Shown in pieces: positions 1,702 through 39,581 of a DNA stretch of 64,000 nt; position 1 is the stretch's first letter, and each line of letters starts with the position of its first letter. A program made the translations under genes and the position numbers. This stretch comes from Candidatus Brevefilum sp. (lineage in GTDB: Bacteria; Chloroflexota; Anaerolineae; Anaerolineales; Anaerolineaceae), in NCBI GenBank assembly GCA_029210815.1, contig JARGGB010000003.1, positions 1-64,000 of the forward strand, written 5' to 3'. Under the pieces are notes generated by a model. That model worked only from the letters and a program-made list of their open reading frames with translations, did no database searches and was not told the DNA's origin.

Positions 1702-2049
1702 GATGGGTTGAGGTGCCATTAATCCGATATTAAGAATCCTTGAAAGGAACTCAGGCTTGATTTATAATTCATTTGGAAATTCCAATCATAAATTGTTGAA
1801 TTTATGGGTTGCAGTTTGAAGTATGCAGACGCAAGGTTTTATTGTTAGATGGAAGCGGTTCTGATCTGAGTATGAATAAGGCTGGGGATATCCCCTTAAG
1901 AAGCGCTGGGGATTTAAGATCAATAACGAACGGATGCTTTCGGATTCAGCTTATGCTGGGTCAGTCTCGAATTGGGCTGGCTTTTTGTGTTTAATTGATT
2001 TCGGAAATTATTGCGTAAAGCTATAGGGTCACCACAGGAGGCAATTGTG

Positions 2050-5000
2050 ATGCAAAGCGAACTGATTTTAAAGAAATTTGGACGTTCAGGATTTTCCCGA
2101 TTTTTAGACAAAGCGATACGGATTTTTATCATCCTGGTGTATTTGCTGACCACCAGCGGGCTGTCGACTATGCGGGTACAGGCGCAGACCACTGATTTGG
2201 AATTAGTGCAGCAGAATACAACCATCACAGGAACACTAAATAACTTTACAGTTACTTTTCCTGTTGATATTCCGGATTCCGTATTGGGTGCTGGTTACTT
2301 TATCAATTCGCGAATCACCTTGAGCACTGAATTACCTGCGGGTGCCACGCTATCAGTGATTAAAGATGGAGTACCTGTCTATAATGACGCATTACCCGAA
2401 GGTGTAACAACCATATTCTGGTTTACAGATCTTGTAGATATGCCAGCATCACCCTTTGACATCCGTTATGAAGGATTAATTGAAAATTATGAAATCACGG
2501 TAAGCGGATTAACCACGGGTTTCGTTTCAAATGTAACCATAGAATCAATTATTTCGACAGACAACACATTTGTGACGGATTTGGTTGTCCTTGATTCTGT
2601 CACCTATATCCTCGATGAAGCACCCCCAGAATTTCAATCTGTTAATCCATTGGAAGGGGCGGTGGTGTTGAGTGCTGATGGCAGTTTTGTCTGGGAAGTG
2701 GATGCAGCGGATACAGGCGGGAATCTTTATGAGCTGGAAGTTGACCACAGCATGGAAGCGAATCTTGCGACACCTGAATTCAGTGTGTATGCTAGTGAAA
2801 CAGATCCATACGGCGGTGAGGGAGCCACATTTGCTTCAGCAGGTGTCTCAGTTTTATATAATGCAACCGAACAGAAGTGGACGATTGACTTCGGGACTGA
2901 TATTACGGATGCCTTAATAGCCAATGGTGGGATTACATTCTATATTGTTTTGAAAGACCAGGCTGGCAATACATGGGGATCGATGAGCCCAACAACAGAG
3001 GAGAATACTTTCCCCTATACCTTTACGCGAGATTTGACCTTGCCATCTTTGGATTCTGTTAATCCCATTGAAGGAGCAGTGGTGTTGAGTGCTGATGGCA
3101 GTTTTGTCTGGGAAGTTGATGCAGCGGATGCAGGTGATAACCTGTCCGAGCTGGAAATTGACCACAGCATGGAAGCAACCTTAACTGAATTCAGTGTGTA
3201 TGCAGATGCGGCCAATCCTTACGGGACACCTGAAGATCAAGCGCAATTTGAAGCAGCAGGTGTGACGGTGACCTACGATGCGGGTTTGCAGAAATGGACG
3301 ATCGATTTTGGATCTGCCGTTACGGATGCCTTAATAGCTAATGGCGGGATTACATTCTATATTGTTTTGAAAGACCAGGCTGGCAATACCTGGGGATCGA
3401 TGAGCCCGACGACAGAGGAGAATACCTTTGTATATAGTTTAACAGAGTTAGAGCCATTGACCTCGGTCTCAATTGACGGGACAGCAGAATTTGGTCAGAC
3501 GCTGACAGCGGTGGTGGTGCCGACTGGTGCCACAGCCAATTATCAATGGAAGATCTCCGGTACAGTGGATGGCACGTATACAAACATCACAGATGCGACG
3601 AACAGTACATACGCAATTGCAGCAGGTGATGTTGGCAAATACATCAAGGTTGAGGCAACGGGTACAGATGCTTATACGGACACGGTGACCAGTGCAGCAG
3701 TGGGACCTGTGGCAGAGAAGACAGTGACGATTGCAGCGATCCCTGGTGTGGTGGTACCGGTACAGGGTGCGGAGCCAGTGAGTGTGACTGGCGAAACTGC
3801 CGAATACACAGGGACGGTGACATGGTCACCCAATGATAACCCCTTTGAATACTACGAAATATATACAGCGACAATCACGCTGACGGCGAAGGACGGTTAT
3901 ACCTTTGATGGTGTAAGCGAAGACTTCTTCACAGTTGCTGGAGCGACATTGGTCAGCAATGCAGTTGATTCAGGTGTTGTGACAGCGGTGTTTCCGAGGA
4001 CGGAAGCGGAGCCATTGACCTCGGTCTCAATTGACGGAACTGCTCAATATGGCAATACCCTGACAGCATCTGTATTACCTGTAGATGCAACGGTGGATTA
4101 CCAGTGGCTGTCTTCATTTGATGGTATTGACTATCTACCAATTTCTGGCGCAACGACAAGTTCATTCATCATTCCTTCAGGCTACGTGGGCATGTACCTC
4201 ATGGTGGAAGCAGCCGGTACCGGTGCTTACGCCGGTACAGTCACCAGCGACCCGGTTATTGTGAGCGCCAGGCCGATAACAGTAACGGCAGATCCACAAA
4301 CCAAGGTTTATGGTTACACGGATCCAGCGCTGACTTACCAGGTCACCAGCGGCGACCTCGTGGGTGAGGACGACTTCACCGGCGCACTGACTCGTGTGGC
4401 AGGTGAGAATGTGGGCAGTTATGAGATAAAGCAGGGTGAGTTGGCACTGAATGCCGATTATGTACTGACATATGTTTCGGATGATCTGACCATCACAGCC
4501 CGACCCCTCACGGTGATGGCTGATGCAAAGAGCAAAATTTACGGCCAATTTGACCCGGCATTTACGTACACCCTTATCGGCGAATTGGTTGCAGGTGACA
4601 GTTTCAGCGGCGGGCTGGGGCGTGTTGGCGGTGAAGATGTAGGTACTTATGCGATCTTCCAGGCAACACTGACAGCTGGCGACAATTATGAAATTACCTA
4701 TAATGGTGCGTTGTTAACGATCAATCCCAGGCCAATTGAGGTAACGGCTGATGCGAAGAGCAAGGTTTATGGCGATATTGACCCTGGTTTAACCTATCAT
4801 ATCTCGGGCACACTGGTTGCCGGGGATGCATTCACTGGTATGCTGACGAGGGTTGCTGGGGAGAAAGTCGGCAGTTATACCATCGAGAAAGGCACACTGG
4901 CGCTCAGTACGAATTACACCCTGACTTATATACCAGCCAGCCTCACCATCACAGCCAAACCGATCACGGTCACGGCAGATCCAAAGACGAAGGTCTACGG

Positions 5001-8000
5001 TGATGCTGACCCCGTATTCACATACACCTATCCGCCGGACGGTCTTGAATTCGAAGACGCATTTGACGGTGCTTTAGGAAGAGCAGGAGGGGAGGATGTG
5101 GGTTCGTATGCAATTAACATCGGGAGCCTGGTGATCCTTGATGAAAATGATGGCGACAACTATAATCTGACATTTGTGCCGGCTAATTTGACAATCACTG
5201 CCAAGCCGATCACGGTGACAGCGACCCCACAGACCAAGGTCTATGGCGACCCGGACCCGGCTTTAACTTACACGTATACGACAGGCGGCCTTGAATTTGA
5301 TGATAAGTTCGACGGCCTTTTGGGAAGAGCACCCGGCGAGGGTGTGGGCGCATACGCAATTAACATCGGGAGCTTGGTGATCCTGGATGGAAATGATGGC
5401 GACAACTATAACCTGACCTTTGTGTCAGCGGATTTGGAAATCACGCCCAAGCCGATCACGGTAACGGCAGATCCCAAAACGAAGACTTATGGTTTACCGG
5501 ATCCGCCGCTGACCTATACCTATGCCCCCGAATTAGAAGCAGGAGACAGCTTTAGCGGCGGCCTGGCACGTATTGGCGGCGAGAACGTGGGCAGTTACAC
5601 GATCACGGACGGCAACTTAACTGCCGGCAGCAATTACACAATCACTTACAATTCCGCCGAATTAACAATTACTGTCCGCGCCATTGAGGTCACGGCGACA
5701 GCAAAGACCAAGATTTACGGCGATTCAGACCCTGTGCTGACCTATACGATTACCGATGGGTCGCTGGCATATATGGATACCTTTAGCGGTGACCTGGTAC
5801 GCGAAGCAGGTGAGATTGTTGGCATTTATGAAATTCAACAAGGGACCTTATCCCTCAGCACGAATTACCACCTGACTTATGTGCCCGCAAATTTCACAAT
5901 CACACAGAGGCCGATCACGGTAACAGCGGATAATCGCTCCAAGACCATTGGCGAAGATGATCCTGAATTGACATACACAGTAGAAGGTTCGCTGGCGTTT
6001 ATAGATACATTTGATGGCATTTTAGAAAGAGAGCCAGGAGAGGATGTGGGCACTTATCCAATCAATCAAGGGACCCTAGAAATAGTGGATGGTTATGAAG
6101 GTGCGAATTACAATCTAAGTTTTGTTCCGGGCACCTTTACGATATCGCCACTGCCAATCGTCACGGTGACGGCTGATCCCCAATCCAAGGTCTATGGGGA
6201 AGACGATCCTGCCTTTACCTATACTTATTCCCCGAATGATCCCCCCATCGTCTTCACAGGATCCCTCACCCGTGTTAATACCAGTGAAAATGTGGGAACT
6301 TACCAGATCACAAAGGGGACACTCGCCGCTGAAGGTTATGAAATTGATTTTGTTTCAGCAAACCTGACGATAACAAAAAGACCCATCGAGGTGACGGCAG
6401 ACACACAAACCAAGGTTTATGGGGATTCCGACCCTGTTTTGACTTATCAGATTACTGACGGCACCAAGCTCGAAACGGATGTTTTTTCCGGCATCCTTGA
6501 GAGAGCCGCAGGTGAGAATGTGGGTACCTATGCCATTAACCAGGGCACGCTGACCCTGGGAAGCAATTACGAGATCACCTTTGTGTCGGCAAACCTGGTA
6601 ATTACGCCCAGGTCCGTCACAGTTACGGCTCACCCACAAACAAAGACCTATGGGGATGCTGACCCTGACCTGACCTACCAGATGACGGCGGGTGAGCTGA
6701 TCGGCGAGGATGATTTCACTGGTGAACTTGAACGAGCTGCTGGCGAGGATGTTGGGACTTATCTTATCAACAAGGGCAGCCTGACATTGGGGAGTAATTA
6801 TGCCATTACTTTTGTTCCGGCGAACCTGACAATCACAGAAAGACCGATCACGGTGTCAGCGGACATAAAAACTAAAACCTATGGTGATGATGATCCTGCC
6901 CTGACCAAAAGCATCACCAGCGGATCCCTTGCCTTCGCCGATGTTCTTTCAGGTACCTTGACCCGTGACCCGGGTGAGGATGTGGGCGTTTACGACATCC
7001 TGAAGGGGAGCCTGGCAGTTGATGACGGCAATGATGGCGATAATTACAACCTCACATTTGTTCCATCGACCCTGACGATCAATGAAAGGCCGATTTCGGT
7101 GACGGCTGCCCTGCAGACCAAGATTTATGGCGAATCTGACCCGGAATTCACCTATGAGATCACCAGCGGTTCCCTTGTCTTCACGGATGACTTTACGGGC
7201 GAGTTATCCCGTGACCCGGGTGAGGATGTAGGCGATTACGCCATCACAATAGGGACTTTGACCCTGGGCACGAATTACAACCTGACTTTGGTGTCAGCAA
7301 ACCTGGAAATCGAGGCGCGGCCGATCACGATCACAGCCGATGATGCCTGGAAGGTGGTAGGCGATGCAGACCCGGCCTTAACCTATCAAATGACTAGCGG
7401 CAGCCTGGTTGAGCCGGATGTAATCACCGGTGCCCTTGACCGGGTGTCAGGTGAAGCCATTGGTATCTATGCAATCCAGCAGGGGACCCTGGCAGTCGAT
7501 GACGGGAACAACGGCGATAATTACGACCTCACATTTGTGGAAGGCGTCTTTGAAATCATAGCCGCGCTGGAAGAAGATTGTTTGACCATGGATGTAAATT
7601 ATCTGAAATATCACCTGGCATCGGGTGAAACGGGCAGCCTGAGCTTCTACCTGACCAATACCTGTGAGAATGGCGTGGGCTTTGAGATAATGGAACGTAA
7701 GACCCTCGTTCGCCAGGATTTTGAAGAAGGGCTCATGCCGCCCACAGACTGGATGACCAAAGTGGGTCTTGATGATGCCAATGACACTTTTGAATGGGAC
7801 ATCAGGGATGCTCTCAGCAATCCAGATCATGTTGATGAAGGTCGCTATGCCGCCTGGTCGAGCTATGATGAAAATAATATCAAAGATGAGTGGCTGCTGT
7901 CGCCGGCCTTTGACCCGGCTGATCTCAGCGATCTTAAACTGACTTTCAGGGCATTTTCATCCACGGTATATTACCGGGACGCGACCATAAAGGTTTGGGT

Positions 8001-8424
8001 GACAGATGCAGATGGCGATCCCATTACCGATTTTTCAGAGGAAGCCATTTGGGATATGATCCGTGATGAAACCTGGACTGGTTATCAGCACCGTACAGTT
8101 TTACTCGATTTGAGCGACTTTGCGGGCTACGCAGAGCCGATCCGGCTTGCCTGGCAGTATGTGGGTATTGATGGCAATTCATTTGGATTGGATATGATTG
8201 ATATCAGCGCTGCTTCTGAGGTGGATTGGCTTTCAAGCGACCCGACCTGGGGCACGGTACCGGCGGGTGAAACGATTAACATCGATGTAACCTTCGATTC
8301 ATCAGGCTTAGCTGTGGGTGAATATGAAGGAACCCTGGAAGCATCGCCTCTGGCACCAATCCCGGTAAAATTGTTTGTGATGGATGCCACCAATAAATTG
8401 TATCTGCCCCTGATTGTCAGGTAA
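2050..8424 (+). CDS. Giant MBG-repeat surface adhesin with C-terminal cleaved-adhesin/MAM-like domain
   Basis: AGGAGG at 2036-2041 supports ATG at 2050 rather than the TTG at 2011. About 14 repeats of [RK]PITVTADPQTKVYGDxDPxLTY...NYxLTFVxAxLTI, two N-terminal Ig-like duplications, C-terminus KLYLPLIVR. Confidence 0.85.
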   Translation: MQSELILKKFGRSGFSRFLDKAIRIFIILVYLLTTSGLSTMRVQAQTTDLELVQQNTTITGTLNNFTVTFPVDIPDSVLGAGYFINSRITLSTELPAGATLSVIKDGVPVYNDALPEGVTTIFWFTDLVDMPASPFDIRYEGLIENYEITVSGLTTGFVSNVTIESIISTDNTFVTDLVVLDSVTYILDEAPPEFQSVNPLEGAVVLSADGSFVWEVDAADTGGNLYELEVDHSMEANLATPEFSVYASETDPYGGEGATFASAGVSVLYNATEQKWTIDFGTDITDALIANGGITFYIVLKDQAGNTWGSMSPTTEENTFPYTFTRDLTLPSLDSVNPIEGAVVLSADGSFVWEVDAADAGDNLSELEIDHSMEATLTEFSVYADAANPYGTPEDQAQFEAAGVTVTYDAGLQKWTIDFGSAVTDALIANGGITFYIVLKDQAGNTWGSMSPTTEENTFVYSLTELEPLTSVSIDGTAEFGQTLTAVVVPTGATANYQWKISGTVDGTYTNITDATNSTYAIAAGDVGKYIKVEATGTDAYTDTVTSAAVGPVAEKTVTIAAIPGVVVPVQGAEPVSVTGETAEYTGTVTWSPNDNPFEYYEIYTATITLTAKDGYTFDGVSEDFFTVAGATLVSNAVDSGVVTAVFPRTEAEPLTSVSIDGTAQYGNTLTASVLPVDATVDYQWLSSFDGIDYLPISGATTSSFIIPSGYVGMYLMVEAAGTGAYAGTVTSDPVIVSARPITVTADPQTKVYGYTDPALTYQVTSGDLVGEDDFTGALTRVAGENVGSYEIKQGELALNADYVLTYVSDDLTITARPLTVMADAKSKIYGQFDPAFTYTLIGELVAGDSFSGGLGRVGGEDVGTYAIFQATLTAGDNYEITYNGALLTINPRPIEVTADAKSKVYGDIDPGLTYHISGTLVAGDAFTGMLTRVAGEKVGSYTIEKGTLALSTNYTLTYIPASLTITAKPITVTADPKTKVYGDADPVFTYTYPPDGLEFEDAFDGALGRAGGEDVGSYAINIGSLVILDENDGDNYNLTFVPANLTITAKPITVTATPQTKVYGDPDPALTYTYTTGGLEFDDKFDGLLGRAPGEGVGAYAINIGSLVILDGNDGDNYNLTFVSADLEITPKPITVTADPKTKTYGLPDPPLTYTYAPELEAGDSFSGGLARIGGENVGSYTITDGNLTAGSNYTITYNSAELTITVRAIEVTATAKTKIYGDSDPVLTYTITDGSLAYMDTFSGDLVREAGEIVGIYEIQQGTLSLSTNYHLTYVPANFTITQRPITVTADNRSKTIGEDDPELTYTVEGSLAFIDTFDGILEREPGEDVGTYPINQGTLEIVDGYEGANYNLSFVPGTFTISPLPIVTVTADPQSKVYGEDDPAFTYTYSPNDPPIVFTGSLTRVNTSENVGTYQITKGTLAAEGYEIDFVSANLTITKRPIEVTADTQTKVYGDSDPVLTYQITDGTKLETDVFSGILERAAGENVGTYAINQGTLTLGSNYEITFVSANLVITPRSVTVTAHPQTKTYGDADPDLTYQMTAGELIGEDDFTGELERAAGEDVGTYLINKGSLTLGSNYAITFVPANLTITERPITVSADIKTKTYGDDDPALTKSITSGSLAFADVLSGTLTRDPGEDVGVYDILKGSLAVDDGNDGDNYNLTFVPSTLTINERPISVTAALQTKIYGESDPEFTYEITSGSLVFTDDFTGELSRDPGEDVGDYAITIGTLTLGTNYNLTLVSANLEIEARPITITADDAWKVVGDADPALTYQMTSGSLVEPDVITGALDRVSGEAIGIYAIQQGTLAVDDGNNGDNYDLTFVEGVFEIIAALEEDCLTMDVNYLKYHLASGETGSLSFYLTNTCENGVGFEIMERKTLVRQDFEEGLMPPTDWMTKVGLDDANDTFEWDIRDALSNPDHVDEGRYAAWSSYDENNIKDEWLLSPAFDPADLSDLKLTFRAFSSTVYYRDATIKVWVTDADGDPITDFSEEAIWDMIRDETWTGYQHRTVLLDLSDFAGYAEPIRLAWQYVGIDGNSFGLDMIDISAASEVDWLSSDPTWGTVPAGETINIDVTFDSSGLAVGEYEGTLEASPLAPIPVKLFVMDATNKLYLPLIVR

Positions 8425-8547: not shown

Positions 8548-9315
8548 TTATTCAACCCTGGTCGGTGTCGGCACCGGCGTTGGTGGTATTGGCGTTGGTG
8601 GTACTGCCGTTGGCGGCGGTGAGGTTGGCCGCGGCGGGGATGTTGGCTGCGGCGGCACCGGCGTGTTGGACGGTTTCGGTTTCGGCTTGTCCGTCGGGGT
8701 GCGGGTGGGCGGGACGTAAGGCGGGACGTAGCGTGTGGCTGTGGCGGTCGGCGTTGGGGTCGCGGTTTCAGTGGGTGTGACCGTCGAGGTGCTGGTGACG
8801 GTGCTCGTCTCGGTGAATACGCTGGTGGGGGTGTAGGTCGCGGTAGGTGTGAAGGTCGGCGTGTTCGTTGCGGGAAGGGCAGTCCGTGTGGGGGTGTTTG
8901 TTGGGGGCAGGGTTGCGGTGGGGGTGGGCCTGGTGAACAGGTCGCCGACACCGGCAAACAAACCGCCCACGCCGTTAGAAATGTTCTTCCCGATACTGGA
9001 AATTTCACGGGGGAACAGGAAACCGACGGTTGAGAGGAGGGCGACCACGAGCACGACCCACAGCCACTTGCTTTGCAGAATTTTCGTATGGGTGGGCTGG
9101 GCAGCCCGAAGTTCTTTGGGGAAGCCGTTCACCCAGCCTTTGAGATAACCTGGGCAGTCGATATGAGAATCCGCCAGGCAGTGTGTGCGCTGGTGTTCCA
9201 GTGACACCGGCACCGGTCTTTTCGATCGATAGCACGAATTGCCTTCATAGGGGAAGGCGGTACTGGTATTGGGATCATCAATCAGGCCGAGATACGGGCA
9301 AATTTTAGGTTCCAT
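8548..9315 (-). CDS. Cys4 N-terminal module plus TM plus Thr/Pro-rich protein (paralog A)
   Basis: [61 protein letters not shown], then TM, then TPT-rich tail; three paralogs nearby. Confidence 0.75.
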
Positions 9316-9549: not shown

Positions 9550-9727
9550 GTAGGGTGCGGTGCTGGCATGAAGCACCTTCAGGGTGCATCATGCGCATGC
9601 AAGTTTTATGAAAAACATGCGTTCACCGCACCATTATCGGCAAAAGATCGATGCCAATCCTATCTGACCAAATTAATTGGGGATGCATGCGTTAAAGCGG
9701 CGGGATGAAAACCGCATCCCGCCCTAC
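9550..9727 (+). repeat. Long REPIN-like element (L copy, left of RAYT)
   Basis: GTAG-GGTGCGGTG...CACCGCACC...spacer...GGCGGGATGAAAACCGCATCCCGCC-CTAC. Confidence 0.9.
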
Positions 9728-9739
9728 AATGACTTTTTT

Positions 9740-9864
9740 GTAGGGTGCTGTGCGTTTTTCACCGCACCATTATCGAACTAAGTTTAATATCAACCCTATC
9801 TGACCAAATTTGTATTGGAATGGATGCATAAAAACGGCGGGATGTAAACCGCATCCCGCCCTAC
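9740..9864 (+). repeat. Short REPIN-like element (S copy, left of RAYT)
   Basis: GTAG-GGTGCTGTGCGTTTTTCACCGCACC ... GGCGGGATGTAAACCGCATCCCGCC-CTAC. Confidence 0.9.
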
Positions 9865-9927
9865 AACGTTTCCAATTTTAATTTTGTCTAACAATGTAAT
9901 GTGTTGCTGATTGTGATAAACTACAAA

Positions 9928-10479
9928 TCATTCCCCAAAATTAAATTTTTCTTGATCAACTTTATATCCCTCTCCCCAGCCAATTTCATAATTTTCTTCT
10001 TGAACATAATCAAAAAAACTCGAACATGGCCAATCTTTCACGCTTTCTACCAAACCATGTTTAACGGGATTGTAATGGATGTAATCGATATGTCTATTGA
10101 GGTCCAAATCATCACGGATGTAATGCTCCCAAAAGCGCCTTTGCCACAAACCACTTTCCCCGCGTTTGCCTTGTGAGAGGTTAGGCGATCGCAAATATCC
10201 AAAATCACTTAAATAATTTTTTGAAAATCTCTTCTTTACTTCAGCAATTCTTGTTGAATAATTGGCATCATCATCTGGCATTTGCCATAGCAAATGTACA
10301 TGATCTGGCAAAATACAAAATGCTTTCGTGATAAAAGGATGTATATTTTTTACATGATTGATTGAATCAAGGAGTAACTGCCTGGCTTCTGATTGAAGGA
10401 ATATTTTTTCCCTTTTGTACGTAACTAAAGTTAAAAAGTATGTTCCACCTTTAATTTTTACTCTTCGGTAATTAGGCAT
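9928..10479 (-). CDS. REP-associated tyrosine transposase (RAYT, Y1_Tnp/IS200-like)
   Basis: MPNYRRVKIKGGTYFLTLVTYKR...CILPDHVHLLWQMP (HUH motif)...LWQRRFWEHYIRDDLDLNRHIDYIHYNPVKHGLV. The track start at 10494 is 15 nt upstream of this ATG. Confidence 0.92.
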   Translation of the reverse strand: MPNYRRVKIKGGTYFLTLVTYKREKIFLQSEARQLLLDSINHVKNIHPFITKAFCILPDHVHLLWQMPDDDANYSTRIAEVKKRFSKNYLSDFGYLRSPNLSQGKRGESGLWQRRFWEHYIRDDLDLNRHIDYIHYNPVKHGLVESVKDWPCSSFFDYVQEENYEIGWGEGYKVDQEKFNFGE

Positions 10480-10512
10480 AAAAAGATTATACAATAGAAA
10501 ATTTCGTTTTTT

Positions 10513-10636
10513 GTAGGGTGCGCTGCGCTTTTCACCGCACCATTATCGGCAAAAGATCAATGCCAATCCTATCTGACCAAATTTATTGGGGATGCATACG
10601 TTAAAACGGCGGGATGAAAACCGCATCCCGCCCTAC
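10513..10636 (+). repeat. Short REPIN-like element (S copy, right of RAYT)
   Basis: GTAG-GGTGCGCTGCGCTTTTCACCGCACC ... GGCGGGATGAAAACCGCATCCCGCC-CTAC. Confidence 0.9.
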
Positions 10637-10649
10637 ATTGACTTTTTTT

Positions 10650-10827
10650 GTAGGGTGCGCTGCTGGCGTGAAGCACCTTCAGGGTGCATTATGCGCATGC
10701 ACGTTTTTCATAAAACGTGCGTTCACCGCACCGTTATCGGCATAAGATCAATGCCAATCCTATCTGACCAAATTTATTGGGGATGCATACGTTAAAACGG
10801 CGGGATGAAAACCGCATCCCGCCCTAC
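10650..10827 (+). repeat. Long REPIN-like element (L copy, right of RAYT)
   Basis: Same 178-bp architecture as 9550-9727. Confidence 0.9.
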
Positions 10828-10845: not shown

Positions 10846-11586
10846 TTATTCGGATACTTTCCTCGTGTACGCCTTAAAAATCCAACCCCTCTCCGTCAAC
10901 AGCCATCCTTTTTGCTCATCTAATACCTCAACAATTTCCCCCTGGACCAATCTTTCGACAATATTAGCCCCGTTTGCCATGTAAATGGGCTCATTCCTGA
11001 TATTTAACGCGGTGGTAATGACTTCCACCATATACGGAAACTCACTGGATGCCTGGTTGGGGGTCTTTGTGATCGTCGGTGTGACGGTCGGTGAGGGCGT
11101 CTCGGTGAATGCGGGGGTGCTTGTTGCGGTCGCGCTTGGTGCGGGGCTTGCCGTCCGGGTAGGTGGGACGGAGGTGTTGGTGGGCGTGCTTGTAAAAAGG
11201 ATTGCTGCTGAGGATGTGGGTTGGGTGAAGCGGCTGTTCACAGCACTTCGCAAATTAGCCCCCATGGCGTTTATTTGCTGGGGGAAAACGAAATAAATTG
11301 AGACAAGGAGTACAACTGCAAGGGCTGCCCAAACCCATTTGTTTCGTAAATATCTTTTGTAAACGGGCGGAAGGGCTTTTAAGGCATCGGGAAAGCCGTT
11401 GACCCAACCGTTGATATACCCGGCGCAGGCGGTATGTTCATCGGCAAGGCAATAACCGCGCTGGTACCGCAATGCCACCGCGGTGGGTTTCTTGGCACGG
11501 TAGCAGTGATTCCCTTCGTAAGGGAAGACTTTGTGGTTATTAAGATCATCGATCAGACCGAGGTAGGGGCAAATTTTTGGATCCAT
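10846..11586 (-). CDS. Cys4 N-terminal module plus TM plus SH3b-like domain (paralog B)
   Basis: [62 protein letters not shown]-terminal VITTALNIRNEPIYMANGANIVERLVQGEIVEVLDEQKGWLLTERGWIF is SH3b-like. Confidence 0.8.
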   Translation of the reverse strand: MDPKICPYLGLIDDLNNHKVFPYEGNHCYRAKKPTAVALRYQRGYCLADEHTACAGYINGWVNGFPDALKALPPVYKRYLRNKWVWAALAVVLLVSIYFVFPQQINAMGANLRSAVNSRFTQPTSSAAILFTSTPTNTSVPPTRTASPAPSATATSTPAFTETPSPTVTPTITKTPNQASSEFPYMVEVITTALNIRNEPIYMANGANIVERLVQGEIVEVLDEQKGWLLTERGWIFKAYTRKVSE

Positions 11587-13626: not shown

Positions 13627-13655
13627 GGTGCGCAGAAAACCACTGCGCACCCTAC
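13627..13655 (-). repeat. Solo REP hairpin with CTAC
   Basis: GGTGCGCAG-AAAACCA-CTGCGCACC-CTAC. Confidence 0.75.
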
Positions 13656-13671
13656 AAAAACCTGATCTTTC

Positions 13672-13728
13672 GTATGGTGCGTGGCGAGCTTGTCTTTGTA
13701 GGAACAATATGAGGGTTATCACGCACCA
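13672..13728. repeat. Diverged REP-like inverted repeat
   Basis: GTAT-GGTGCGTG...CACGCACC. Confidence 0.5.
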
Positions 13729-13788
13729 AGAATAAGCAAAAATTTTACCTGTTGGCAATGGTGTTGGGTAAATTAATGTGCAAAAAAT

Positions 13789-13843
13789 GGTGCGGTGAAC
13801 CCTCACGCCTTTGGCTCAGGGCAGGCAACGCACCGCACCCTAC
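13789..13843 (-). repeat. REP-like inverted repeat with CTAC
   Basis: GGTGCGGTG...CACCGCACC-CTAC. Confidence 0.75.
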
Positions 13844-13895: not shown

Positions 13896-14489
13896 TTATG
13901 GTGTTTTGGTGACGATAATAAACGGCTGTGGACCGTCTGAAAGGGTGGGTGTGCCCGTCGGTTGGCTTGTGGGTGTAAAGGTTTCAGTCGGCGCCTGGGT
14001 GGCTGTGTGTGTGCTCGTTGGCGTCTCGGTTGGCAAGGGAGTCGCCGAAGGAGCAGGCGTCTCTGTGGATGTTGGGGCTTCAAGGGTTTCTGTGAGGGTA
14101 GGGTATTCTGTCTCAGCAGAGGGATTGAGACCATCATTGTTCATCGATCCGATTTTATCCCCGATGTTTGTGATTTGTGGAATCAGGATAACCAGCAAGA
14201 ACAGGATGATGATCGATAGGCTCACCAACCAGACCTTTGTGTTAAATAATGCACGTTTCCAGTTTGGGTAATCTGCACGTAAAAATTTGGGGAAACTCCC
14301 TGTTTCCCATCCGGTAATATAGCCAGCGCACCGTGTATGTGATTCTGTAAGGCAGTGGCTTTTTTGGTAAGAAAGCTTTACCGGAACAGGTTTTTTTACC
14401 CGGTGGCAGGCGTTGGCTTCGTATGGGAAATCTTTGGATGAGGATGGGTCATCGACCAGACAAAGGTAAGGGCAGATTTTTGTTTCCAT
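13896..14489 (-). CDS. Cys4 N-terminal module plus TM plus Thr/Pro-rich protein (paralog C)
   Basis: METKICPYLCLVDDPSSSKDFPYEANACHRVKKPVPVKLSYQKSHCLTESHTRCAGYITGW; aligned start at 14489, not 14549. Confidence 0.75.
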   Translation of the reverse strand: METKICPYLCLVDDPSSSKDFPYEANACHRVKKPVPVKLSYQKSHCLTESHTRCAGYITGWETGSFPKFLRADYPNWKRALFNTKVWLVSLSIIILFLLVILIPQITNIGDKIGSMNNDGLNPSAETEYPTLTETLEAPTSTETPAPSATPLPTETPTSTHTATQAPTETFTPTSQPTGTPTLSDGPQPFIIVTKTP

Positions 14490-14592
14490 AAAGTTTTCTT
14501 TGAGTAGATGATGGTCAAGATGGGACGGCTTGATTTCTGATCCGTTCACCTTTTCCAGAGTCTATGCGCTGCGTTGTTCCTTCAGCCTAACA

Positions 14593-14759: not shown

Positions 14760-16154
14760 TTAGGGTTCAGGTGTTTCGGTTTTTGTCAGGTAGATGAAGG
14801 GGGCGACCCCGGGCGTGCCGCTTCCCGGCGAGGTTGATGAGGGTACCGGTGTTTGCGTGCTCGTGGGTGTTAAGGATGGCCCGGCAATTTCTGAAGGCGA
14901 AAGGGTCAATGTGGGTGCACCCGGTGTGTTTGTGGCAAGAATGGCTTCAATGGTCTCCATGCCGGCGCTGATCCAGGTGTCTACTTTTACCCGTACATCC
15001 CGGCCAAAGGATAATACCTGCCCTGGGAATATCGCAAACAGGATGATGAGTATAATGAGCAGGCTGACCAACCTGAAGGCTTTGCTTTGAAAGACTTTCT
15101 TTAAACGCCATTTTCGCCGCACTTTCTTCTTGCGAGAAAAGATCCTTTGAAAGAAGTTCAACCCATCGGCTTTATTTTGTTTTACTTTTGTTCCTTTGCC
15201 AGCCAGCAGACCCTTCCGATCCTGCTTATCCTGTCGATCTTTTTGCCAGGGAAGCTCAATTTTCAGGGATTTTTTTTGACGCCGCTGGGATTTCAGCTCA
15301 TCTCGCAAGTTATATTCCTTGCGAAGATCGAGTTTTTCACGGGTTGCCCTTTCCGGTACAGGCTCCTGGTAGCTCTCTTTTCGTAACTCCTGTTCCCTTT
15401 CAACGTCAATCTGCTGCACGGACGATGGGGCAATATATTGTTGAATTATTTCAACACGATCCGGCATTGTTTGCTTTTCTTCTTCAGCAATAATCTTTGC
15501 CTTTTGGCGGGGGCTAACGGCTGATTTCTGCTCTTTTTTGGTAAGCCTTATTGCCACCAGCTTGCTTTGAAGTGATTTTATGAAGGATTGTTTCTTTTCC
15601 GTTTCTTTTTGAACTTTTAATTTGGCACCCAGGCTTTTAATTCGGTCATTTAACCGTATTTTCTCTTTGAAGAGCGCAAAGCTGGCTGCAAGCGCTTTGT
15701 ACCAGTCCCTTTTCTTGTGGACTTCTTTTATCGCCGTCGTTTTTTCTGTTTTAATAGAAATTGGTGCTTGTTCAGTTTTAGGTTTGATCTTTTCAACCTC
15801 TATGTGCGGCAATTTTTCTGTTTCAACCACAATCGGTGCTTGTTCGGTTGTGGGTCTGACCTTCTCAGACTCTTTTTGTGGGGTTTTTTCTTTCCATACC
15901 CGCAGTTTACTCAATACTTTGTTGAGCACCGGATTGTTGTCCTGTCGCAAAAATTTTGGAAAGCCGGATTCCCAACCATTAATATACCCGGCGCATTGGG
16001 TATATGACTCGTTGAGACAATGGCTTCTCTGGTAAGAAAGTTTGACAGGAACCGGTTTTATTACAAGGTGGCAGGCATGACCCTCGTAAGGGAAGTTTTT
16101 ACAGGTTTTTGTGTCGTCGAGGACGGCGAGGTAAGGGCAGTTTCTTTGTTCCAT
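14760..16154 (-). CDS. Cys4 N-terminal module plus long Lys/Glu-rich insert plus TM plus Thr/Pro tail (paralog D)
   Basis: MEQRNCPYLAVLDDTKTCKNFPYEGHACHLVIKPVPVKLSYQRSHCLNESYTQCAGYINGWESGFPKFLR. Confidence 0.75.
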   Translation of the reverse strand: MEQRNCPYLAVLDDTKTCKNFPYEGHACHLVIKPVPVKLSYQRSHCLNESYTQCAGYINGWESGFPKFLRQDNNPVLNKVLSKLRVWKEKTPQKESEKVRPTTEQAPIVVETEKLPHIEVEKIKPKTEQAPISIKTEKTTAIKEVHKKRDWYKALAASFALFKEKIRLNDRIKSLGAKLKVQKETEKKQSFIKSLQSKLVAIRLTKKEQKSAVSPRQKAKIIAEEEKQTMPDRVEIIQQYIAPSSVQQIDVEREQELRKESYQEPVPERATREKLDLRKEYNLRDELKSQRRQKKSLKIELPWQKDRQDKQDRKGLLAGKGTKVKQNKADGLNFFQRIFSRKKKVRRKWRLKKVFQSKAFRLVSLLIILIILFAIFPGQVLSFGRDVRVKVDTWISAGMETIEAILATNTPGAPTLTLSPSEIAGPSLTPTSTQTPVPSSTSPGSGTPGVAPFIYLTKTETPEP

Positions 16155-16637: not shown

Positions 16638-17600
16638 ATGTCACCTGTAGTTACTATGAAAGCGCTCCTCGAGAGCGGCGTCCACTTTGGTCACCGGACC
16701 AATAAATGGAATCCCAAGATGCGCTCTTACATCTTTACGGAACGCAATGGTATCCATATTATCGACCTTCAGCAAACTGTAAAATTGCTGGATGATGCTT
16801 ACAATTTTGTGCGAGATCAAGTTGCCAATGGCGGAACCGTGTTGTTCGTCGGCACCAAACGCCAGGCACAGGATACGATCCGTGAAGAAGCAGAACGCTG
16901 TGGAATGCCCTATGTCAATGAACGCTGGTTGGGCGGCACCATCACCAACTGGTTCACAATCCAAAAACGAATTTTTGAACTGGAACGTCTCGAACGCATG
17001 CGCGACAGCGGTCAAATTGACCTGCTGACCAAAAAAGAGGGTCTGTTGATTGAGCGCGATATTGAACGATTGGATATGCGACTGCATGGTATCCGCACCA
17101 TGAAACGACTGCCAGACGTCTTGTTTGTGGTTGATGTTATGCGTGAGGACACTGCGGTGCATGAGGCGAATCTCAAGGACATTCCCGTGATCGCCATGAT
17201 CGATACCAATTGTGATCCCAAAAACGTGGATTACGTGATCCCCTCCAACGATGATGCCATCCGCGCGATCAAGCTGCTGGTTGGAAAAATCGCTGACGCA
17301 GTGATGGAAGGCAAAGCCATCCGCAGCAAGGATATTGAAGATGAGGAAATGTTGGCAGAATCCATGCCAGCAGAGGTTTCCATCTTTGTTGACGATGATG
17401 AAGACCTGGAAGATGAAGCGCTTCTGGGAGCATCGACCCTGAAACACCTGGGAACCACAAAGAAAGCTAAACCCAAACGAAGCGATCTTGAGGACGAGGA
17501 AGAAGAAATCGTCGCCGAGGATGTCGAAGAAGAAATTGTCGCCGAGGATGTCGAAGAAGAAATTGAAGCCGTTGTTGAAGACGACGACGAAGAAAATTAA
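16638..17600 (+). CDS. rpsB: 30S ribosomal protein S2 with long acidic C-terminal extension
   Basis: [45 protein letters not shown]...; followed by tsf. Confidence 0.97.
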
Positions 17601-39467: not shown

Positions 39468-39516
39468 TTTTATTGGGTATATGGTTGAAAGTCAAGAGGT
39501 GGTGAATGAGGTAGCA

Positions 39517-39581
39517 GGAATCAGGTACTAGGAATCAGGTACTAGGAATCAGGTACTAGGAATCAGGTACTAGGAATCAGG
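39517..39581. repeat. 14-bp tandem repeat GGAATCAGGTACTA, about 4.6 copies
   Basis: Copies start at 39517, 39531, 39545, 39559 and 39573 (partial); an inverted copy (TACCTGATTCC) follows near 39630. Confidence 0.9.

Follow-up and report, generated by a model that had tools for sequence, protein, structure and literature searches.

Organization of the RAYT Locus

The window analyzed here is the whole stretch of 64,000 nt from a Candidatus Brevefilum genome. On its minus strand (9928–10479), it carries a gene of 183 aa that, judged by sequence and predicted fold, is a REP-associated tyrosine transposase (RAYT, TnpA-REP). The reading frame is open from a TTG at 10494 and closes with the stop codon at 9928–9930; the ATG at 10479, the likely start, aligns with the start of E. 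coli TnpA-REP (PDB 4er8). Four elements surround the gene, and their order on the plus strand is Long, linker, Short, RAYT, Short, linker, Long. The left Long doublet (L1, 9550–9727, plus strand) consists of a REP-a with a 61-nt loop (9550–9632), a spacer (9633–9698), and an inverted REP-b (9699–9727), and the linker AATGACTTTTTT (9728–9739) joins it to the Short doublet S1 (9740–9864, plus), which comprises a REP-a with a 7-nt loop (9740–9768) and an inverted REP-b (9836–9864). On the other side, the Short doublet S2 (10513–10636, plus; REP-a 10513–10541, inverted REP-b 10608–10636) starts 33 bp upstream of the RAYT start codon and is followed by the linker ATTGACTTTTTTT (10637–10649), whose counterpart at the sister locus is AATGATTCTTTTTT, and by the Long doublet L2 (10650–10827, plus; REP-a with a 61-nt loop 10650–10732, inverted REP-b 10799–10827).

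All four elements are co-oriented, with REP-a (GTAG) first and the inverted REP-b (CTAC) last. Each is a head-to-head REP doublet, in which either hairpin, read on its own strand, is a GTAG-footed REP. REP-a is of the GTAG-GGTGCGGTG type and has a 9-bp stem with GTAG at its 5′ foot; REP-b is of the GTAG-GGCGGGATG type, is inverted within the element, and ends in CTAC. The spacers measure 66–67 nt in all four elements, and the Long and Short forms are distinguished by a REP-a loop of 61 versus 7 nt (+54). Relative to CACCGCACC, a single mismatch is present in the REP-a stems of S1 (GGTGCTGTG), S2, and L2 (both GGTGCGCTG). The positions of the elements, their order, shared orientation, and linkers are exactly those given in the initial annotation, which had also described, correctly, two different hairpins around a spacer of 60–70 bp and an optional insert of ~54 bp in one of them.

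An additional long doublet lies 9 kb away on the minus strand (447–621; REP-a with a 61-nt loop 539–621, REP-b 447–475), and two additional GTAG REPs of other stem types occupy 13627–13843 on the same strand, i.e., GGTGCGCAG at 13627–13655 and GGTGCGGTG with a 33-nt loop at 13789–13843. The RAYT block is placed between the first two of four tandem paralogous genes, all on the minus strand (8548–9315, 10846–11586, 13896–14549, and 14760–16154), whose products start with M(E/D)xKxCPYLxxxDD and have Thr/Pro-rich tails; the upstream regions of those two are also similar. Elsewhere in the window, a 2137-aa protein with 14 MBG (YGX type) repeats is encoded at 2011–8424, and a 14-bp tandem repeat (GAATCAGGTACTAG) is found at 39504–39581; GGTATCAGG-like strings recur beside other REP loci in the genome. 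The Rfam matches in the window are tRNAs only.

Identity of the RAYT Protein

The protein scores 184.3 bits against the NCBIfam model REP_Tyr_transpos (NF047646; cut-off 80), and the closest solved structure is E. coli TnpA-REP, both by sequence (4er8, 4.9e-33) and by the predicted fold obtained from an alignment-based prediction (1.7e-17, TM 0.74/0.82). The HUH motif (HVH), the Y motif YIHYNPVKHG, and WQRRFWEHYIR are intact, which upholds the identity that had been proposed from the HUH and catalytic tyrosine motifs. Residues W94, Q95, E100, H101, and R104 of E. coli TnpA-REP are reported to take part in GTAG recognition (PMC6006769), and the residues aligned to them are present in the window protein and in most of its relatives. 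Motifs alone, read against Table 1 of PMC6006769, suggest group 2, subclass 2.2. The long cognate REPs with a stem mismatch or bulge that characterize this subclass are a majority trait and not a strict one; here, most stems are nine perfect pairs, and a bulge-like break beneath an upper stem occurs only in the long-loop REP forms.

An IS200/IS605 insertion sequence was ruled out, as the gene is the single such copy, is syntenic with the sister genome, and scores 22 bits against transpos_IS200 (NCBIfam), below the cut-off of 55. A second, distant RAYT-like gene (L046; contig C15, 8216–8731) reaches 92 bits against NF047646, and no GTAG hairpin lies near it within the examined stretch.

Enrichment of GTAG Hairpins in the Genome and Genus

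The note that first drew attention to the locus had named a lack of enrichment elsewhere in the genome or in RAYT-bearing relatives as grounds for refutation; enrichment is evident in both, and the interpretation withstood this check. In the 2.66-Mb genome, the pattern GTAGGGYG-N17-CRCC occurs 41 times versus 0 for the control, the REP-b pattern 17 times versus 0 for its reversed control, and blastn with one short element returns 28 matches. These numbers derive from pattern, blast, and model searches; the covariance model yielded 24 matches in this genome, which is also the number of candidates scored and hence gives no copy count. The REP copy number is probably underestimated because several contigs end in or near the repeats. 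Summed across 16 genomes of the genus, GTAGGGYG-N17-CRCC occurs 307 times versus 42 for the control. REP counts range from 12 to 96 in congeners with a close RAYT homologue (E < 1e-60) versus 0 to 20 in those without (Mann–Whitney p = 0.002, an indicative value, as the genomes are related and some are incomplete). One genome, G015, which is 71% complete, has many REPs without a RAYT match.

The association extends across many phyla, where a GTAG hairpin lies within 500 bp in 64 of 80 RAYT relatives. The density of GTAG hairpins is 2.66/kb near these 80 relatives (≤500 bp) versus 0.091/kb farther off, whereas seven control tetranucleotides reach at most 0.25/kb near the same genes; the elements are GTAG-footed hairpins of the kind associated with TnpA-REP, as had been supposed. 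The stem sequences are specific to each RAYT lineage, and the REPs at the loci read are extragenic. Across the stretches from this genome and its sister, 17 of 32 neighboring REP pairs are head to head. The elements thus display the features of GTAG-REP families and BIMEs, i.e., a 5′ GTAG palindrome, many copies, and head-to-head doublets, and these 17 doublets constitute over-represented inverted REP pairs with a spacer, which is one part of the strict definition of a REPIN.

Another RAYT lineage of the genus (L225, G026:C1; L232, G023:C61) is flanked by larger GTAGGGTGGGTTG-type palindromes with loops of ~50–70 nt, close to a "double foot" form. Perfect "double foot" palindromes of a different hairpin family, GTAGGGGC...GCCCCTAC, were observed at L047 (contig C41 of this genome, 1779–1806) and L229 (G026:C9, 246203–246230).

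Stem Covariation, Loops, and Flanks

Of 108 distinct GTAGGGYG 29-mers picked irrespective of pairing, 63 pair at ≥8/9 positions in a fixed 9-7-9 geometry; when the 3′ arms were shuffled among the 29-mers, a mean of 11 and a maximum of 20 did so (200 shuffles). Both-sided changes are found at stem pairs 3, 5, 6, 7, 8, and 9. In an alignment of 12 doublet sequences, the covariation score of REP-a was reached by one shuffle among 500; the same alignment is uninformative for REP-b, which hardly varies in it.

REP loops measure 7, 22, 33, and 61 nt in this genome and its sister and are longer in G028. Within the 61-nt loop, folding gives two inner hairpins (computed whole-REP z of −3.6 to −7.9). 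S2 and L2 are 98% identical outside the loop; therefore, the loops change quickly. The L2 inner hairpin (10699–10720) is inverted relative to that of L1 (9599–9620), and inverted hairpin tips were also seen in otherwise matching copies, as if flipped (C88:24072–24100 of this genome versus L261 of G026).

The hexanucleotide 5′ of GTAG is rich in T, with 21–35 T among 50 sequences at each position (background 27%), and 45 of the 50 have a pyrimidine directly before GTAG, giving a flank of TTTT-Y-GTAG. Since this flank is present on both REP types, and hence at both outer ends of the doublet, it is more likely a part of the recognized sequence than a one-sided target. A CT cleavage dinucleotide 5′ of GTAG is reported for E. 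coli; here, CT occurs within 15 nt in 25 of 50 cases at variable positions, with none at a fixed distance.

Comparison with Sister and Congener Genomes

The orthologous RAYT in the sister genome G026 is 88–89% identical and has the same neighboring genes. Its right side holds a Short and a medium-loop doublet in place of the Short and Long of the window, and its left side holds one Short doublet plus two tandem units with identical doublets, spaced ~221 bp; L1 is absent. The order at the syntenic locus is therefore S-M-M-RAYT-S-M, and the Long-Short-RAYT-Short-Long symmetry, real in the window, is not conserved. On this ground, the mirrored order was rejected as a functional design. Outside the loops, L1, S2, and L2 are 94–98% identical to one another versus 76–83% to the copies at the sister locus, while the left flank and the gene are ~90% identical between the two species; hence, L1, S2, and L2 were duplicated or homogenized after the split from the sister. 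The doublet at 447–621 has an ortholog in G026, and the 61-nt loop is kept in both.

Thirteen other loci were compared, and most are occupied in G026 or G015. Neither sister has the C77 pair, and G026 lacks the C24:2090 element as it lacks L1, but no clean empty target site was recovered among these comparisons, and at two differing sites unrelated sequence replaces the element. This pattern fits a slow REP spread together with local duplication; given the occupancy of most loci in both species and the lack of a clean empty target, any present activity is conjectural. In a congener, a 56% identical RAYT (L220, G020:C71) is likewise located upstream of rpsB-tsf-pyrH, an arrangement shared with the window (rpsB at 16638); the congener gene is nearer to rpsB-tsf-pyrH and in the opposite relative orientation.

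Predicted Fold of the Doublets

All 17 head-to-head doublets in the stretches from this genome and its sister are heterodimers, and each of the nine RAYT loci inspected in the genus, which extend to ~50% protein identity, combines two different arms; when arms of 7 nt are considered, heterodimers seem less universal in the genus, with some lineages differing only at positions 8–9. Under DNA folding parameters, pairing across the spacer brings the natural doublets a mean gain of 1.2 kcal/mol versus 21–40 kcal/mol for computed homodimers. The strict notion of a REPIN, in which the whole doublet is one long hairpin, does not describe such a fold in silico, and "heterodimeric REP doublet" is therefore the safer name.

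The predicted probability that GTAG is unpaired has a median by locus of 0.80 in the genus versus 0.05 in other phyla, and it is 0.47–0.89 in the doublets of the window locus. It exceeds 0.5 at 8/9 loci of the genus versus 4/25 loci of other phyla (p = 6e-5, which is nominal since the loci are related), and 2 of these 4 are doubtful REP calls. The genus doublets should accordingly form two separate hairpins with a free GTAG (probability of about 0.8), as opposed to one long hairpin, which is the prediction for the majority of relatives in other phyla; inside cells, where proteins bind and DNA is replicated, folding may deviate from the model. Elsewhere in the family the picture is mixed (2/4 loci), with no difference from the genus by test, and the predicted separate-hairpin fold is thus not exclusive to the genus. 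One y/z doublet of E. coli gains 1.9 kcal/mol across its spacer, yet its GTAG is predicted to be paired (unpaired probability of 0.09); y/z doublets are borderline as single long hairpins.

For the frequent heterodimery of REP doublets, "no obvious explanation" has been seen (PMC3733652). In the 2011 proposal of Bertels and Rainey, the RAYT is unlikely to recognize the long hairpin, which would conceal the doublet, whereas the clover form would expose it (PMC3116915, Fig. S11 legend). We tentatively suggest, as a possibility that we hold to be somewhat less probable than its converse, that heterodimers in the genus are held by compensatory stem divergence in each RAYT lineage, which would keep the hairpins separate with a free GTAG (the presumed transposition-competent "clover"), and that loop cassettes, which reach 61 nt and contain inner hairpins, are transferred between copies independently of the remaining sequence. 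If the clover idea is true, the genus carries doublets held in the form recognized by the RAYT. With related RAYTs and 8/9 loci predicted as clover versus 4/25 in other phyla, the genus offers a natural contrast for "clover versus hairpin", and its separately folding doublets make that idea testable.

Proposed Mechanism and Alternative Explanations

We consider the following reading of the locus, as a REPtron, highly probable. In the proposed mechanism, a group-2-like RAYT, acting as an HUH single-strand endonuclease/ligase, would recognize GTAG-footed hairpins as folded single-stranded DNA and would excise, copy, or rejoin head-to-head doublets over evolutionary time. The analysis demonstrates the gene identity, the anatomy and enrichment of the elements, their association with RAYTs, stem covariation, and both presence/absence differences and recent duplication relative to sister genomes; we infer single-strand binding and cleavage, mobilization in trans, and what the separate fold signifies. 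The doublet (REP-a, ~66-nt spacer, inverted REP-b) would be a non-autonomous element that spreads in trans and has multiplied locally beside the gene, with the RAYT gene itself inherited vertically between the closest species. The loop varies (7, 22, 33, or 61 nt, in many cases containing inner hairpins) and would be gained, lost, or exchanged faster than the remainder, and the differing stems are each kept paired by compensatory changes, so that two separate hairpins whose GTAG feet are exposed are the predicted fold of the doublet. The recent copies could also have arisen by tandem duplication and gene conversion without a transposase.

Most compared elements occupy the same site in both sister species, both sisters carry an ordinary terminator-like hairpin where the C77 pair is missing, and two REP-b hairpins at the window locus score as terminator-like, all of which would suit host-functional hairpins (terminators, mRNA stabilizers, or protein-binding sites) under selection at the RNA or chromosome level, with the RAYT as a relic whose mobility is now unimportant. 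We regard this explanation as improbable, since the REP count tracks RAYT presence in the genus, the stem sequences vary between RAYT lineages, duplication at the RAYT locus is recent, and the GTAG foot, which terminators do not need, is conserved and specific relative to control tetranucleotides. Nevertheless, host-function and mobile-element roles can coexist. A composite transposon, in which the entire Long-Short-RAYT-Short-Long block moves as one unit, would account for the symmetric order around the gene and for RAYT homologues at different places in other congeners; however, the RAYT has the same neighbors in G026, the genome has a single such copy, the four doublets are direct rather than inverted repeats of one another, and the left side differs between species. 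This model was rejected on the synteny with G026 and is, in our view, extremely unlikely.

Relationship to Known REP Systems

Analogous to the REPtron of E. coli (TnpA-REP/rayT, y/z REPs, and BIMEs), the REPtron proposed here combines the same protein fold and motifs with a GTAG foot, two REP types joined head to head, and REP clusters around the gene. Contrary to E. coli, it has fully paired 9-bp stems that lack the conserved mismatch bulge, a spacer of ~66 nt (~13 in one E. coli doublet examined), GTAG feet predicted to be unpaired rather than paired, and an Anaerolineaceae host. The REPINs of Pseudomonas fluorescens (PMC3116915) are likewise inverted REP doublets with a conserved spacer (a 71-bp class there), RAYT linkage, and tandem clusters, but are mostly pairs of one REP type with a predicted single long hairpin, whereas the REPs here differ and are predicted to fold separately.

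The initial annotation had called a doublet of two non-identical hairpins an unusual architecture, which is overstated, as precedents exist in the y/z BIMEs of E. coli (PMC8266576), in the two REP types per RAYT listed in Table 1 of Nunvar 2010 (PMC2817692), and in the heterodimers and long loops of Di Nocera 2013 (PMC3733652), where GTAG repeats in Chloroflexi were also reported. RAYTs with flanking REPs, as well as REP clusters, have been published too. Literature linking "repetitive extragenic palindromic" with Anaerolineae was not found within a partial literature coverage; apart from the fold contrast, the finding extends the known REPtron system to Anaerolineaceae. The GTAG repeat families of Di Nocera 2013 share the GTAG tag, stems of 6–9 bp, head-to-head dimers, heterodimers, and variable loops with the elements described here; their loops measure 2–20 bp (inner paired region ≤27 bp), whereas those in the present genome reach 61 nt and contain two inner hairpins.
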